From positions 1 to 44,762 of the forward strand of contig ONBI01000006.1 in assembly GCA_900316035.1 (NCBI GenBank): 44,762 bases of DNA, written 5' to 3'. The position numbers and the translations under genes are program-made. This stretch comes from an uncultured Eubacteriales bacterium (GTDB taxonomy: Bacteria > Bacillota_I > Bacilli_A > RFN20 > CAG-288). Shown here piece after piece: positions 13,673 through 21,562 of the stretch (its first letter is position 1; each line of letters opens with the position of its first letter). The notes under the pieces are model-generated. The model searched no databases. It was not told the DNA's origin and saw only the letters and a list, made by a program, of their open reading frames with translations.

Positions 13673-14857
13673 CTATTCTCCATAAAGATGAAGAGATGTA
13701 TCAAAGGAAGGCGTTTTCGTTTCATAAAGAGCTCTCAGATAATGAACACGGGTGGAATGAAAGCAATCGGATATTTTGTACGCTATTTCGGAAGAAAGGA
13801 AATCAGGGTCATCTTTATAGGCATCGATAATACCATTGAAAACGGCTTCCTTGTTGTAGGTGTTCTTGAGCGCTTTATTGAATGCTTTTGTCAGATAACG
13901 GAGATATGTATCTTTAAATCTCTCTTTGATGATGGGAGCAAGACCGACATAATCGGAAAGAGGAAGGGAGGATACAATACCAGGCTTATATTCCGCTCCG
14001 CAAATCATCCCATAAGCAACGCTTTGATTTGCCTTATCGGATTGCGTGGAGAGAAAATCGTCTTCGTTTTCCCTTTCTTCCGGTGTCAAAAGCTGATAGT
14101 AACGATAAAGAATAGAAGAGGAAAAAGAGCCCATTTCAATCAAAGAGCGAAGTAGCTTTTTTTCTTCTTCCGGTGACAGGTTCGGCTTCAGACATTTTGT
14201 GAAAATATCTTCTCGTAGAGTGGAAGCGTAATCGAAATAGAGGCAAGTGTTTTTTAGAACCGAAAGTGCAAGAAGAAATTTCCTTTTTTGAATCAAATAA
14301 CGGACAAATATATCGGAAGCGCGATAAGAAAAATTATAATTTGTCTTGGAAAGTGCTTCGAAAGTGGCATCCTTAATATAGTCTTCTATGGTGTTAAAAT
14401 AGCGATAGAAAAAATCAAGTAATGTGGTTTCTCTGTCTTCCGTGCTCAGAAAGCTATTCTGAATCAAACTGTTTACATAGTAACCATAGGTTTCGCTTTT
14501 CAGAGCCTCAACTAAGAAAGCACTGACGGTCGCTTTGTTTTTCTCTAACATATAGAAACCATCGAACATCTTCTCTTTGACGGAACTTTCGGCAGGAAGA
14601 TCTTCGGTGAAAACCATAAAGCGGTGAGGTAGTTTCTTTCTTTCTTCTAAACTGTAAGTCTTAAAAGCATTCTGAAAAATCGAGACGAGGGAACGGACTT
14701 TGCTGATATCCGACCAAGAAGGACAGCAACGGATAAACGTTGCTTTCGCTTGGTCAAAAAAAGCATCCGGCCGATTGTACTGAAGCATCATCAGACCCGA
14801 CATCTTCTCTTGGTAAGTAGCGGCATCCCAGATAATGTTACTTGGTTTTTCGTTCAT
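13673..14857 (-). CDS. Helical protein of unknown function, first gene of the SNF2 operon
   Basis: I do not recognise this 394-residue protein. A longer frame begins at a TTG at 14995, but that would run through the divergent antiporter promoter and give 46 residues of unrelated composition. ATG 14857 (MNEKPSNIIWD) and ATG 14866 are the realistic starts. The sequence is rich in Leu, Tyr, Phe, Lys and Glu, with no signal, membrane span or Cys motif. The regular pattern of amphipathic helices (FDQAKATFIRCCPSW; FLLALSVLKNTCLYFDYAS) suggests an all-alpha repeat fold such as a TPR- or HEAT-like solenoid, typical of protein-protein interaction. It ends 5 bp before the SNF2 gene. A partner or adaptor of that ATPase is an inference from position only. 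Confidence 0.7.
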   Translation of the reverse strand: MNEKPSNIIWDAATYQEKMSGLMMLQYNRPDAFFDQAKATFIRCCPSWSDISKVRSLVSIFQNAFKTYSLEERKKLPHRFMVFTEDLPAESSVKEKMFDGFYMLEKNKATVSAFLVEALKSETYGYYVNSLIQNSFLSTEDRETTLLDFFYRYFNTIEDYIKDATFEALSKTNYNFSYRASDIFVRYLIQKRKFLLALSVLKNTCLYFDYASTLREDIFTKCLKPNLSPEEEKKLLRSLIEMGSFSSSILYRYYQLLTPEERENEDDFLSTQSDKANQSVAYGMICGAEYKPGIVSSLPLSDYVGLAPIIKERFKDTYLRYLTKAFNKALKNTYNKEAVFNGIIDAYKDDPDFLSSEIAYKISDCFHSTRVHYLRALYETKTPSFDTSLHLYGE

Positions 14858-14864
14858 AGAGAAC

Positions 14865-14870
14865 ATTATA
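14865..14870 (-). promoter_or_regulatory. -10 box just ahead of the helical-protein gene
   Basis: TATAAT on the minus strand (14870-14865) ends 7 bp before ATG 14857, so transcription would begin at about the start codon. The -35 is poor (TTGTTT at 15 bp). No Shine-Dalgarno motif precedes the ATG. Confidence 0.4.
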
Positions 14871-14989
14871 AGCGGAAGAGAAGTAAAACAAATAGGCTTT
14901 AGAAAGAAATAGAGAGGTGTTGTGGAAGCGGAGAGGATTTTGGCGCTTGAATTTCTCCAATAGTATGCAAGAAGGCGCTGAGCCTCACC

Positions 14990-15018
14990 TTGCAAAACCG
15001 AAAACGAAAGCCTATACT
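14990..15018 (+). promoter_or_regulatory. Promoter of the fluoride riboswitch-antiporter transcript
   Basis: TTGCAA (14990-14995) and TATACT (15013-15018) with a 17-bp spacer. The predicted start near 15025 lies just before the aptamer. Confidence 0.65.
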
Positions 15019-15028
15019 TCTTCGCGTC

Positions 15029-15128
15029 AGGGAATGATGTCTCCCTAGCAGGATTCCTGCTGAACCGCTTAACAAAGCTGATGACGTCTGCGCGGAAAAA
15101 GAAAGTGCAGATTTTCTCAGCTTTTTTC
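15029..15128 (+). promoter_or_regulatory. Fluoride (crcB) riboswitch with transcription-terminator platform
   Basis: P1 is AGGGA (15029-15033) with TCCCT (15042-15046) around the loop ATGATGTC. The loop bases GATGTC (15036-15041) pair with GACGTC (15083-15088), the crcB pseudoknot. Conserved AACCGC (15063-15068) and GCTGATGAC (15077-15085) flank the second stem GCTT/AAGC (15067-15070, 15075-15078). An additional hairpin AGCAGG/CCTGCT (15047-15061) is inserted after P1. The expression platform is AAGCTGA (15075-15081) pairing with TCAGCTT (15117-15123), followed by T residues, with an inner stem CTGCGC/GTGCAG. Aptamer and terminator share 15075-15088, so fluoride binding should prevent termination and switch on the antiporter gene. 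Confidence 0.85.
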
Positions 15129-15151
15129 TTTCCGGGAAAGGAATCCAGAGT

Positions 15152-16375
15152 ATGTGGTATCTTTCCTTAGGGATGATTTTGGTCGGAGGAGGATTGATTG
15201 CTTTCCTCTTTCCGAAACTACGTTTACCGGCCTTGCTCGGTTATCTCTGTTTCGGTCTATTGCTAGGGTATTTTCATCTTATCGCTCCGGAGATACTGGA
15301 AGTATCTTCCGAAATCCGCAAGTTCGCTCTTATTATCATTCTTCTGAAAGCGGGACTCAGTCTTAACCTCAATGACCTCAAGAAAGTAGGAAGACCGGCG
15401 ATTCTGATCTCTTTTGTTCCCGCCTGTGTCGAGATGTGTGCGGTCGGTTTATTAGGCCCTTACATCTTAGGACTGAGTTATATTGAAAGCTTCTTGCTAG
15501 GTTCTGTCTTAGGAGCCGTTTCTCCGGCTGTTGTCGTTCCCCGTATGACACAGCTGATGGACGAAGGCTATGGAGTAGACCAAGGAATTCCGCAACTTAT
15601 CATCGCCGGATCCAGCATGGACGATATCGTCATGATCGTCTTCTTCAATTCCTTCCTCTCGTTAGAAACGGGCGGCGATCTTTCGTGGATCACGTTTATG
15701 AATATTCCGATTTCGATTGTTACGGGAGTGGCGGTTGGAATAGGAGCTGGCTTTCTCCTTGCTTTTCTCTATTCCAAAGCGAAGATGAGAGACTCTATTA
15801 AACTTACTCTCTTGCTCGGTATCTCTCTTCTCTTTGTCGTTGCGGAAGAATATTTATCGAAGTGGTTCTCTTTTTCTTCTCTTTTGGCGGTACTGACGAT
15901 GGGTATCGTTCTTCTTTTAAGAAAACCGGATACTTCTTCTCATCTTGCTACCAAGTGCGGAAAGCTCTGGGTACCGGCGGAAATCTTTCTCTTTGTCTTA
16001 GTCGGTGCTTCCTTGGATGTTGCTTATTTAGGAAGTTACATTCTTCCCGCTCTTCTGATGATTCTTCTTTCTTTGGCTTTCCGTTCTCTTGGTGTTCAGG
16101 CTTGTCTTATCAAAACCCCTTTCAACATTAAAGAAAGAACCTATATTTCTATCTCTTACCTTCCGAAAGCTACGGTTCAGGCTGCCTTGGGTGGAACTCT
16201 TTTAGATACCGGAACAAAACTTCAGAACGATGCCATGATCAAAGCCGGGACTATCGTCCTAGCGGTATCCGTCTGTTATATCCTGATCACCGCTCCGCTC
16301 AGTGCCTTTGCTATGGATTTATCTTACAGGCATTTACTGCAACCGAAAAGAGAAGAGATAGTAAAAGACGCATAA
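15152..16375 (+). CDS. Cation/proton antiporter (CPA family) under fluoride riboswitch
   Basis: A 407-residue polytopic membrane protein of the Na+/H+ exchanger superfamily, with about 12 hydrophobic spans. Recognisable features are the N-terminal GLIAFLFPKLRLPALLGYLC re-entrant start (residues 14-33), LLKAGLSLNL, and GSVLGAVSPAVVVPRM in the ion-path region, where CPA1-type proteins carry conserved acidic or polar residues. ATG 15152 follows GGGAAAGGAAT. The gene is alone on its transcript. Antiporters are known members of fluoride-induced gene sets, where they may offset the proton or sodium load of fluoride stress. Direct fluoride export by this protein is not implied; it is unlike Fluc or CLC-F. 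Ion specificity cannot be read from the sequence. Confidence 0.88.
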   Translation: MWYLSLGMILVGGGLIAFLFPKLRLPALLGYLCFGLLLGYFHLIAPEILEVSSEIRKFALIIILLKAGLSLNLNDLKKVGRPAILISFVPACVEMCAVGLLGPYILGLSYIESFLLGSVLGAVSPAVVVPRMTQLMDEGYGVDQGIPQLIIAGSSMDDIVMIVFFNSFLSLETGGDLSWITFMNIPISIVTGVAVGIGAGFLLAFLYSKAKMRDSIKLTLLLGISLLFVVAEEYLSKWFSFSSLLAVLTMGIVLLLRKPDTSSHLATKCGKLWVPAEIFLFVLVGASLDVAYLGSYILPALLMILLSLAFRSLGVQACLIKTPFNIKERTYISISYLPKATVQAALGGTLLDTGTKLQNDAMIKAGTIVLAVSVCYILITAPLSAFAMDLSYRHLLQPKREEIVKDA

Positions 16376-20111: not shown

Positions 20112-20425
20112 CCATAAAGCGCCGATGAGGAAGAGTAATCGCAACGCTGACTCAAGAGAGAATCTCTCCTAGGCTGGAAGAGAGAGGGTCAGAAACGACG
20201 AACATGGCCTCTGAGCTGAGACGGTGAAAGCTTCGAAACAGAGAAGCAAATAACTGTCTACGGGAAAGCCCGTCATAGCCGCTGGGTTTAGAAGCTTGAA
20301 CCCTCTGAGATTCTCTGAAGTGATTCAGGGAGTGAACTAAGGTGGTAACACGGGTTAATAGTCCCCGTCCTTAACTCAAACTACAGCAGATGTGGTTTTG
20401 GTTAGGGGCGGGGCTTTCTTTCTAT
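20112..20425 (+). promoter_or_regulatory. T-box leader, methionine specifier
   Basis: Stem I starts GATGAGGAAGAGTAAT (20124-20139), the usual T-box opening. The specifier loop reads GAACATGGCC, with codon ATG at 20204-20206, that is Met. The T-box proper is AAGGTGGTAACACGGG (20339-20354); its UGGU bulge (20343-20346) pairs with ACCA ends and its U fits the discriminator A of tRNA-Met. The antiterminator pairs ACGGG with CCCGT and AAGG with CCTT. The competing terminator is a long stem from 20363 (CCCCGTCC) to 20413 (GGGGCGGGG), followed by CTTTCTTTCT. Uncharged tRNA-Met should therefore switch on the transporter operon. Confidence 0.95.
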
Positions 20426-20461
20426 AAAAGCTCACCTCTTCCAACCAAAGGAGAGTGTGAT

Positions 20462-21562
20462 ATGAGCCTATTAAGTGTAAGACATCTCGAGAAATCCTTC
20501 GGGGACAAAAAAGTCCTCACGGATATCTGCCTGGAAGTAGAAAAAGGCGATATCTATGGTATTTTAGGTCTCTCGGGAGCTGGAAAATCGACCTTGGTCC
20601 GCTGTCTTAACGGACTCGAACAGTTCGATTCCGGGAAAGTCTATTTCAAAGACCAACTGCTCATTTCCCCGAAGCATCCGATCGAACGGAAAGAGAGAAG
20701 AAAGATTGCGATGATCTTCCAATCCTTCAATCTTCTCGAACAGAGGAATGCTATCGGGAATGTCGAGCTTGCCTTAGAAGTCAACCCTGACTTCTGCAAA
20801 GAGAAAGCGAAACAGATTCGTCTCGAGTACTCGACACGAATGTGCAATGCCAAGAGTGAAGAAGAGAAGAAACAGCTGAAAGCAGAAGAGAAAGCGAAGG
20901 TATCTCATCTCAAAGAGAACATCGCTAGAGATGCTCTTCACCGTGTCGGCTTAGCCGATAAAGAAAAATCCTATCCTTCCGAACTCTCCGGCGGTCAGAA
21001 ACAGAGAGTCGCTATCGCTAGAGCGCTGGTTCTCGAACCGGAAATCCTCTTATCCGATGAAGCGACCTCGGCTTTGGATCCGGAGACGACCACTTCCATC
21101 ATCACCTTGCTGAAACAGCTGAACAAGGAACTCGGATTGACGATCCTCATGATCTCCCATCAGATGAACGTCATCGAAGAGGCGTGCAACAAAGTCGCTA
21201 TCCTCGATTCCTCCCGCATCGTTGAAAACGGTTCGATTCAGGAAGTCTACCTCTCTCCGAAAACCGAGATCTCGCGGAAACTCCTCTACGCCAATCACAT
21301 CAATACCCCGCTCGATGATGAAAAGCAGATCCGACTTCTCTTCAACGGAAACAGCGATGAACCGATACTAGCCAATATCGTTCAGGATTGTCAGATTCTT
21401 GTCTCCGTCGTCTATGCCGATACGAAAGTCTTAGACGGTAAGGTCTTCGGTCAACTGGTTCTCAAGATGCCGAAGAACGATGCCGAAATCAAGAAACTGG
21501 AAATTTATCTCTCCATCCATCACATCGATTATGAGGAGGTGCAGAGCTATGACGGGAAGTGA
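20462..21562 (+). CDS. metN: Methionine ABC transporter ATPase with extra insertion
   Basis: A 366-residue ATPase of the D/L-methionine importer. The start is ATG 20462 after AAAGGAGAG; the longer frame would begin inside the T-box terminator. Walker A is GLSGAGKST (36-44), the Q-loop Gln is 87, the signature LSGGQ is 175-179 and Walker B ILLSDE is 195-200. The C-terminal NIL domain (about 290-366), which senses methionine and inhibits transport, is present. Between Q-loop and signature there are about 35 more residues than in E. coli MetN. The extra part is a Lys/Glu-rich helical segment (about 108-155, including KSEEEKKQLKAEEKAKVSHL). The stop lies 14 bp inside metI. Confidence 0.93.
   Translation: MSLLSVRHLEKSFGDKKVLTDICLEVEKGDIYGILGLSGAGKSTLVRCLNGLEQFDSGKVYFKDQLLISPKHPIERKERRKIAMIFQSFNLLEQRNAIGNVELALEVNPDFCKEKAKQIRLEYSTRMCNAKSEEEKKQLKAEEKAKVSHLKENIARDALHRVGLADKEKSYPSELSGGQKQRVAIARALVLEPEILLSDEATSALDPETTTSIITLLKQLNKELGLTILMISHQMNVIEEACNKVAILDSSRIVENGSIQEVYLSPKTEISRKLLYANHINTPLDDEKQIRLLFNGNSDEPILANIVQDCQILVSVVYADTKVLDGKVFGQLVLKMPKNDAEIKKLEIYLSIHHIDYEEVQSYDGK

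Follow-up and report, generated by a model that had tools for sequence, protein, structure and literature searches.

The window, that is, the whole 44,762-nucleotide stretch of DNA from an uncultured Eubacteriales bacterium that was analyzed here, carries a conserved fluoride riboswitch linked to a single downstream gene, which encodes an NHA2-like (CPA2) cation/proton antiporter. With a confidence of roughly three in four, we propose that the leader acts as a fluoride-ON transcription switch and that the electroneutral cation/H+ antiporter under its control limits fluoride stress through pH adjustment and cation exchange. Fluoride switches usually point to fluoride-protective genes. Binding of fluoride and switching by the window RNA would be expected by analogy with known members of the class, while protection by exchange of H+ for Na+, Li+ or K+ is put forward with less assurance.

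A search of the whole window against Rfam placed the fluoride riboswitch aptamer (crcB RNA motif, RF01734) at 15021–15097 on the forward strand (E = 1e-9), in an alignment spanning positions 1 to 64 of the 64-position model and with a score of 46.0 bits, above the gathering threshold of 34; the family model gave 60.9 bits. The preliminary description had proposed a crcB aptamer at this site, to be checked with the Rfam covariance model, and the above-threshold score bears this out. The P1 stem-loop (AGGGA-ATGATGTC-TCCCT; 15029–15046), whose strands 15029–15033 and 15042–15046 enclose the loop ATGATGTC, is supported by the RF01734 match and RNAfold, as well as by pair counts, and the P3 stem-loop (GCTT-AACA-AAGC; 15067–15078) by the RF01734 match and pair counts. 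The pseudoknot pairs GATGTC (15036–15041) with GACGTC (15083–15088), all on the forward strand, with one U-G wobble, and the conserved aptamer bases AACCGC and GCTGATGAC are both present. Across 79 aptamer homologues, 93.8% of cells are paired for the 13 base pairs that make up P1, P3 and the pseudoknot, and the covariation of these pairs reaches 0.176, compared with 0.076 in shuffles, which ignore relatedness, and at most 0.055 with slid partners. The third pseudoknot pair covaries as well (A-U 48, U-G 18, G-U 7 and U-A 4), corroborating the pseudoknot as it had originally been drawn. On these sequence comparisons, we regard 15021–15097 as a genuine and standard fluoride riboswitch; chance is excluded.

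The window differs from most homologues in the composition of its pseudoknot: its top pair is C-G and its U-G wobble is the third pair, whereas the majority combine a U-G top pair with a Watson-Crick third pair. In the homologue alignment, a C-G top pair tends to be accompanied by a third-pair wobble (Fisher p = 0.001, uncorrected for relatedness). The wobble at the top of the pseudoknot has been described as essential for switching (PMC11077080). The same study names the two helices of small model aptamers P1 and P3, with a joining region between them, while elsewhere the same stems are numbered P1 and P2, with the pseudoknot as P3 (PMC8004769). The P1/P3 naming would leave room for a P2, namely the variable hairpin found here.

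This hairpin (AGCAGG-ATT-CCTGCT; 15047–15061, forward strand) is formed by six pairs between 15047–15052 and 15056–15061, lies between P1 and the junction, and is predicted by RNAfold as well as by the homologous segments. It had been singled out as an odd insertion; its existence stands, its oddity does not. Although it is an addition to the RF01734 motif, it is common in this subset: a stem of at least three pairs occurs in 73 of 75 distinct P1-to-junction segments, with 49 different 5' arms, and the summed Watson-Crick stem length of the 75 segments is 286, versus 172 ± 5.8 after shuffling (z = 19.7). Hairpins of differing sequence in 73 of the 75 inserts thus rule out a peculiar insertion, the window hairpin being among the longer ones of the set. 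Two CLC-linked switches whose genes have canonical CLC-F signatures (L217 and L219) also carry the hairpin, and it is absent from the Fluc-linked switches that were read (L004 and L214). It is a common, optional and sequence-variable helix of these aptamers.

Upstream of the aptamer, a σA-like promoter (TTGCAA-17 nt-TATACT; 14990–15018, forward strand) was recognized by its spacing and by its count (1 found versus 0.3 expected in shuffles). As this promoter puts the predicted transcript start near 15025, the RNA starts at the aptamer. The minimum free energy structure of 15025–15130 contains P1, the second hairpin and a terminator (RNAfold, −36.8 kcal/mol), and is more stable than expected (z = −3.3; none of 200 shuffles was equally stable). 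The predicted intrinsic terminator (15074–15127, forward strand) consists of a stem at 15074–15124 and a U6 tract at 15122–15127, and its 5' arm incorporates GACGTC from the pseudoknot as well as the 3' side of P3 and the conserved bases GCTGATGAC. Because the terminator uses these aptamer strands, aptamer and terminator are mutually exclusive, an arrangement that has the layout of an ON switch acting on transcription and matches the logic of the crcB motif. A terminator on the same conserved core is found in 82 of 88 homologous leaders, so that the sharing of sequence between terminator and aptamer, already remarked upon in the preliminary description, extends well beyond the window. A putative ribosome-binding site (AAAGGA; 15137–15142, forward strand) lies 9 nt before the ATG.

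Two further features of the window may be recorded here. A divergent open reading frame of 440 aa (13673–14995, reverse strand) lies upstream of the switch and has no Pfam or NCBIfam match; since its listed TTG start at 14995 crosses the promoter region, the true start is probably further in. At 20113–20375 (forward strand), a T-box leader (99 bits, gathering threshold 93) is located directly upstream of a gene for a MetN-like methionine ABC transporter ATPase (20390–21562).

Relics of fluoride switches do exist: in two genomes (G102 and G181; loci L211 and L213), an intact-looking switch is followed by about the first 20 antiporter codons only, the rest of the gene being gone. It is nevertheless highly improbable that the window RNA is a degenerate, non-functional remnant of this kind, as every element, from promoter through aptamer, terminator and ribosome-binding site to the full-length gene, is intact, and both the conserved bases and the covarying pairs have been kept.

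The gene under control (15152–16375, forward strand) encodes a 407-aa NHA2/SLC9B2-like cation/proton antiporter with the DD motif D157–D158. PF00999 (Na_H_Exchanger; 156.5 bits, cut-off 26.2) is its only Pfam match, and since the next gene, uvrB, faces the opposite way, no gene other than the antiporter lies behind the switch; both points agree with the CPA-type antiporter first proposed. Neither PF02537 (Fluc/CrcB) nor PF00654 (CLC) was detected in the product, which has no sequence relation to Fluc or CLC-F, the usual products of fluoride-switch genes, and the NCBIfam equivalog for NhaP2-type K+/H+ antiporters (PRK05326) scored 80 bits, far below its cut-off of 355. The best solved relative is mammalian NHA2/SLC9B2 (PDB 7B4L and 7P1I; PMC8850199), which is matched over the whole transport domain (170 bits, E = 7e-49), whereas solved prokaryotic Na+/H+ antiporters score only 64 and 27 bits; this similarity to NHA2 settles the fold. 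The NHA2 ion-site residues D277, D278, E214, R431, K459 and T461 (PMC8850199), which include the E214–R431 salt bridge, correspond to D157, D158, E94, R311, K339 and T341 of the window protein. Differences from NHA2 are the shorter length, the long N-terminal region being absent, a Tyr in place of Trp456, and control by a fluoride switch. All six site residues are invariant in 109 homologues, whether or not a riboswitch is present, and this identity rules out a special, fluoride-adapted ion site among the residues examined. From what is established for NHA2, electroneutral Na+(Li+)/H+ exchange is what one would expect by default, and we infer a similar electroneutral cation/H+ exchange for the window antiporter. 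A second antiporter copy is represented in the window genome by its 3' half, some 210 codons long (L225:675–1385, reverse strand), on a 3.8-kb contig (G000:C25); either this paralogue is truncated, or the contig is mis-binned or chimeric.

The antiporter had been regarded as an unusual partner for a fluoride switch. In the window's class it is the usual one: of 395 genomes, a fluoride switch was detected in 98 and the antiporter in 119, and 88 of the 102 switch hits are followed within 1 kb by an antiporter gene in the same orientation, at a median distance of 48 nt. The remaining 14 hits include antiporter loci that are cut or have decayed as well as switches in front of crcB, CLC-F or different genes; a few weak ones are probably due to chance. 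Within the window's family (23 genomes), seven genomes have the switch, six before the antiporter and one before crcB, and antiporters scoring above 600 bits occur in exactly those six. The switch is present at about 60 of the 80 closest named antiporter loci, in carriers that include Faecalibacterium, Blautia, Megasphaera, Enterocloster, many uncultured gut Firmicutes and a few Bacteroidota; in the antiporter tree it is spread throughout, with scattered absences. More distant homologues (34–45% identity) with RF01734 just upstream were found in Picosynechococcus PCC 7002, Ilyobacter, Cetobacterium, Peptoclostridium (where a CBS-domain gene intervenes between switch and antiporter) and Acetoanaerobium. 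These five, among them one cyanobacterium and two Fusobacteriota, are the distant homologues read from the plasmid collection, so that every one of those read has the switch. Altogether, the pairing recurs at about 150 loci in several phyla.

In line with these counts, Na+/H+ antiporters are given as the second most common class of fluoride-riboswitch genes, after the exporters, in PMC11139923 (citing Baker 2012). The pairing is thus widespread, already published and very common in gut Firmicutes. A related arrangement is found in C. difficile (CD0656-7; PMC11477304), although there the antiporter follows a CLC-F gene in one fluoride-switch operon, whereas the window antiporter stands alone. 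The preliminary description is accordingly supported in part: RNA, coordinates, pseudoknot, terminator and gene were right, and the two features held to be odd, the hairpin and the partner gene, are ordinary. In one genome (G242), a fluoride switch of 41 bits (L218, G242:C37) precedes a gene that, judged by eye, resembles an iron-sulfur scaffold protein, a second switch precedes the antiporter, and there is a third weak hit.

The unit also appears to move. A genome of the window's genus (G005; L098) and one from another family of the same order (G174; L152) share a segment of 1551 bp at 92.8% identity. It comprises the promoter region along with switch and antiporter, and the flanks examined show no similarity. 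In the antiporter tree, the proteins from the window's genus are found at several places far from one another. These comparisons suggest transfer between families as a cassette of about 1.5 kb. Separately, many enterobacterial plasmids carry an NHA-like antiporter truncated to its C-terminal half (L236:2525–3073; 44% identity to the window protein); it accounts for most of the 350 matching plasmid records, and in one resistance plasmid that was read it lies beside rmtB.

Many carriers have neither of the known fluoride exporters, an observation beyond the reach of the preliminary description, which was made from the window sequence. In the window genome neither Fluc nor CLC was found, an absence that is weak by itself in an assembly that is 75% complete and in 93 contigs. 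All six switch-antiporter genomes of the family, the window's and five others, contain no Fluc and no recognized CLC-F; one of them (G014) encodes a full CLC that lacks CLC-F signatures, and in another (G007) there is only a weak partial CLC match. Among 50 named antiporter genomes, Fluc was detected in none of the 34 with the switch and in 1 of the 16 without it, by a search that recovered Fluc in 10 of 14 control genomes. CLC proteins were detected in 24 of the 50. Fifteen of the 34 carriers have no CLC, 13 have a CLC-F-type protein, four a chloride-type and two other CLCs. The 13 comprise 11 proteins of a GREGA/GEIVP form and two nearer the canonical signatures. For one tested GREGA/GEIVP protein, CLC-F was the closest solved structure (161 versus 26 bits), and a non-fluoride assignment was rejected on this basis; with all such proteins assigned to the CLC-F type, fewer carriers count as exporter-less. 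Near the CLC genes of the 34 carriers no fluoride switch was found, apart from one weak 15-bit match. Depending on the count, 19 to 21 of the 34 carriers, many of which are incomplete metagenome assemblies, have no recognized fluoride exporter (Fluc or CLC-F-type), and in these the antiporter is the only recognized fluoride-response gene. Across strains in general, more than 85% are reported to have Fluc or CLC-F (PMC11139923). In the window's class Fluc is rare overall (11 of 395 genomes), and the idea that Fluc and antiporter strictly exclude each other in this class was discarded for want of significance (395 genomes, Fisher p = 0.18).

The lack of Fluc in all 34 carriers (against 1 in 16 genomes without the switch), of any CLC in 15 of them and of both exporters in the six family members is what would be expected if the antiporter itself moved fluoride, by F−/H+ exchange or cation-coupled F− export, in place of Fluc and CLC-F. 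A monocistronic unit that has moved between families as a cassette fits the same expectation, and halide transport has been proposed for the NHA fold: a review (PMC9174904) mentions one study reporting Drosophila NHA1 to be an H+-Cl− cotransporter. Such transport nonetheless seems unlikely. Since the cation-site residues of NHA2 are the same with or without the riboswitch, nothing points to an altered selectivity, and the ion site, as read from sequence, would lend direct fluoride transport no support. Moreover, 13 of the 34 carriers also have a CLC-F-type protein, and the joint presence of CLC-F and antiporter in the C. difficile operon suggests different jobs for the two (PMC11477304).

Alternatively, the antiporter could be an accessory gene for pH or ion homeostasis, with the main work in carriers lacking Fluc and CLC-F being done by another, unrecognized exporter. 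This agrees with the role in pH homeostasis that has been ascribed in print to Na+/H+ antiporters linked to the riboswitch (PMC11139923), and with the few carriers that have additional switch hits at other genes, G242 among them. We consider it possible but rather doubtful, given that a single hit is the rule, with few exceptions, among the 98 switch-bearing genomes, that the antiporter is the only switch-linked gene in most carriers, and that the cassette is transferred as one gene.

Our preferred reading is a fluoride-ON switch for an antiporter acting through pH and cation exchange, and it would operate as follows. Without fluoride, the nascent RNA would fold the 15074–15124 terminator and transcription would stop. 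Once Mg2+-fluoride is bound, the conserved GCTGATGACGTC strand would be held by P1, P3 and the pseudoknot, the terminator would be blocked and the antiporter would be made. HF that has diffused into a cell dissociates into F− and H+, and the build-up of F− follows the pH gradient. By exchanging H+ for Na+, Li+ or K+, the antiporter could then adjust the cytoplasmic pH and so reduce both the acidification and the gradient-driven accumulation that follow HF entry, in cells of which many have neither Fluc nor CLC-F. If H+ left through the exchanger, pH would be restored; if H+ entered, less fluoride would accumulate and HF would diffuse out, a route suggested here that needs no fluoride-binding site and would suit exporter-less cells. 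An antiporter working in its usual direction, with H+ moving in, would acidify the cytoplasm, and this counts against the pH and cation mechanism.

More tentatively, NHA2-like antiporters might constitute a third class of primary fluoride-resistance transporter, replacing Fluc and CLC-F in many anaerobic Firmicutes and spreading as a switch-gene cassette; they would then either move fluoride or discharge the pH gradient so that HF diffuses out. The value of the finding lies in the question of whether cation/proton exchange by this antiporter alone suffices for fluoride resistance, and in the link that it draws between the exchanger family of human NHA2 and bacterial fluoride defence.
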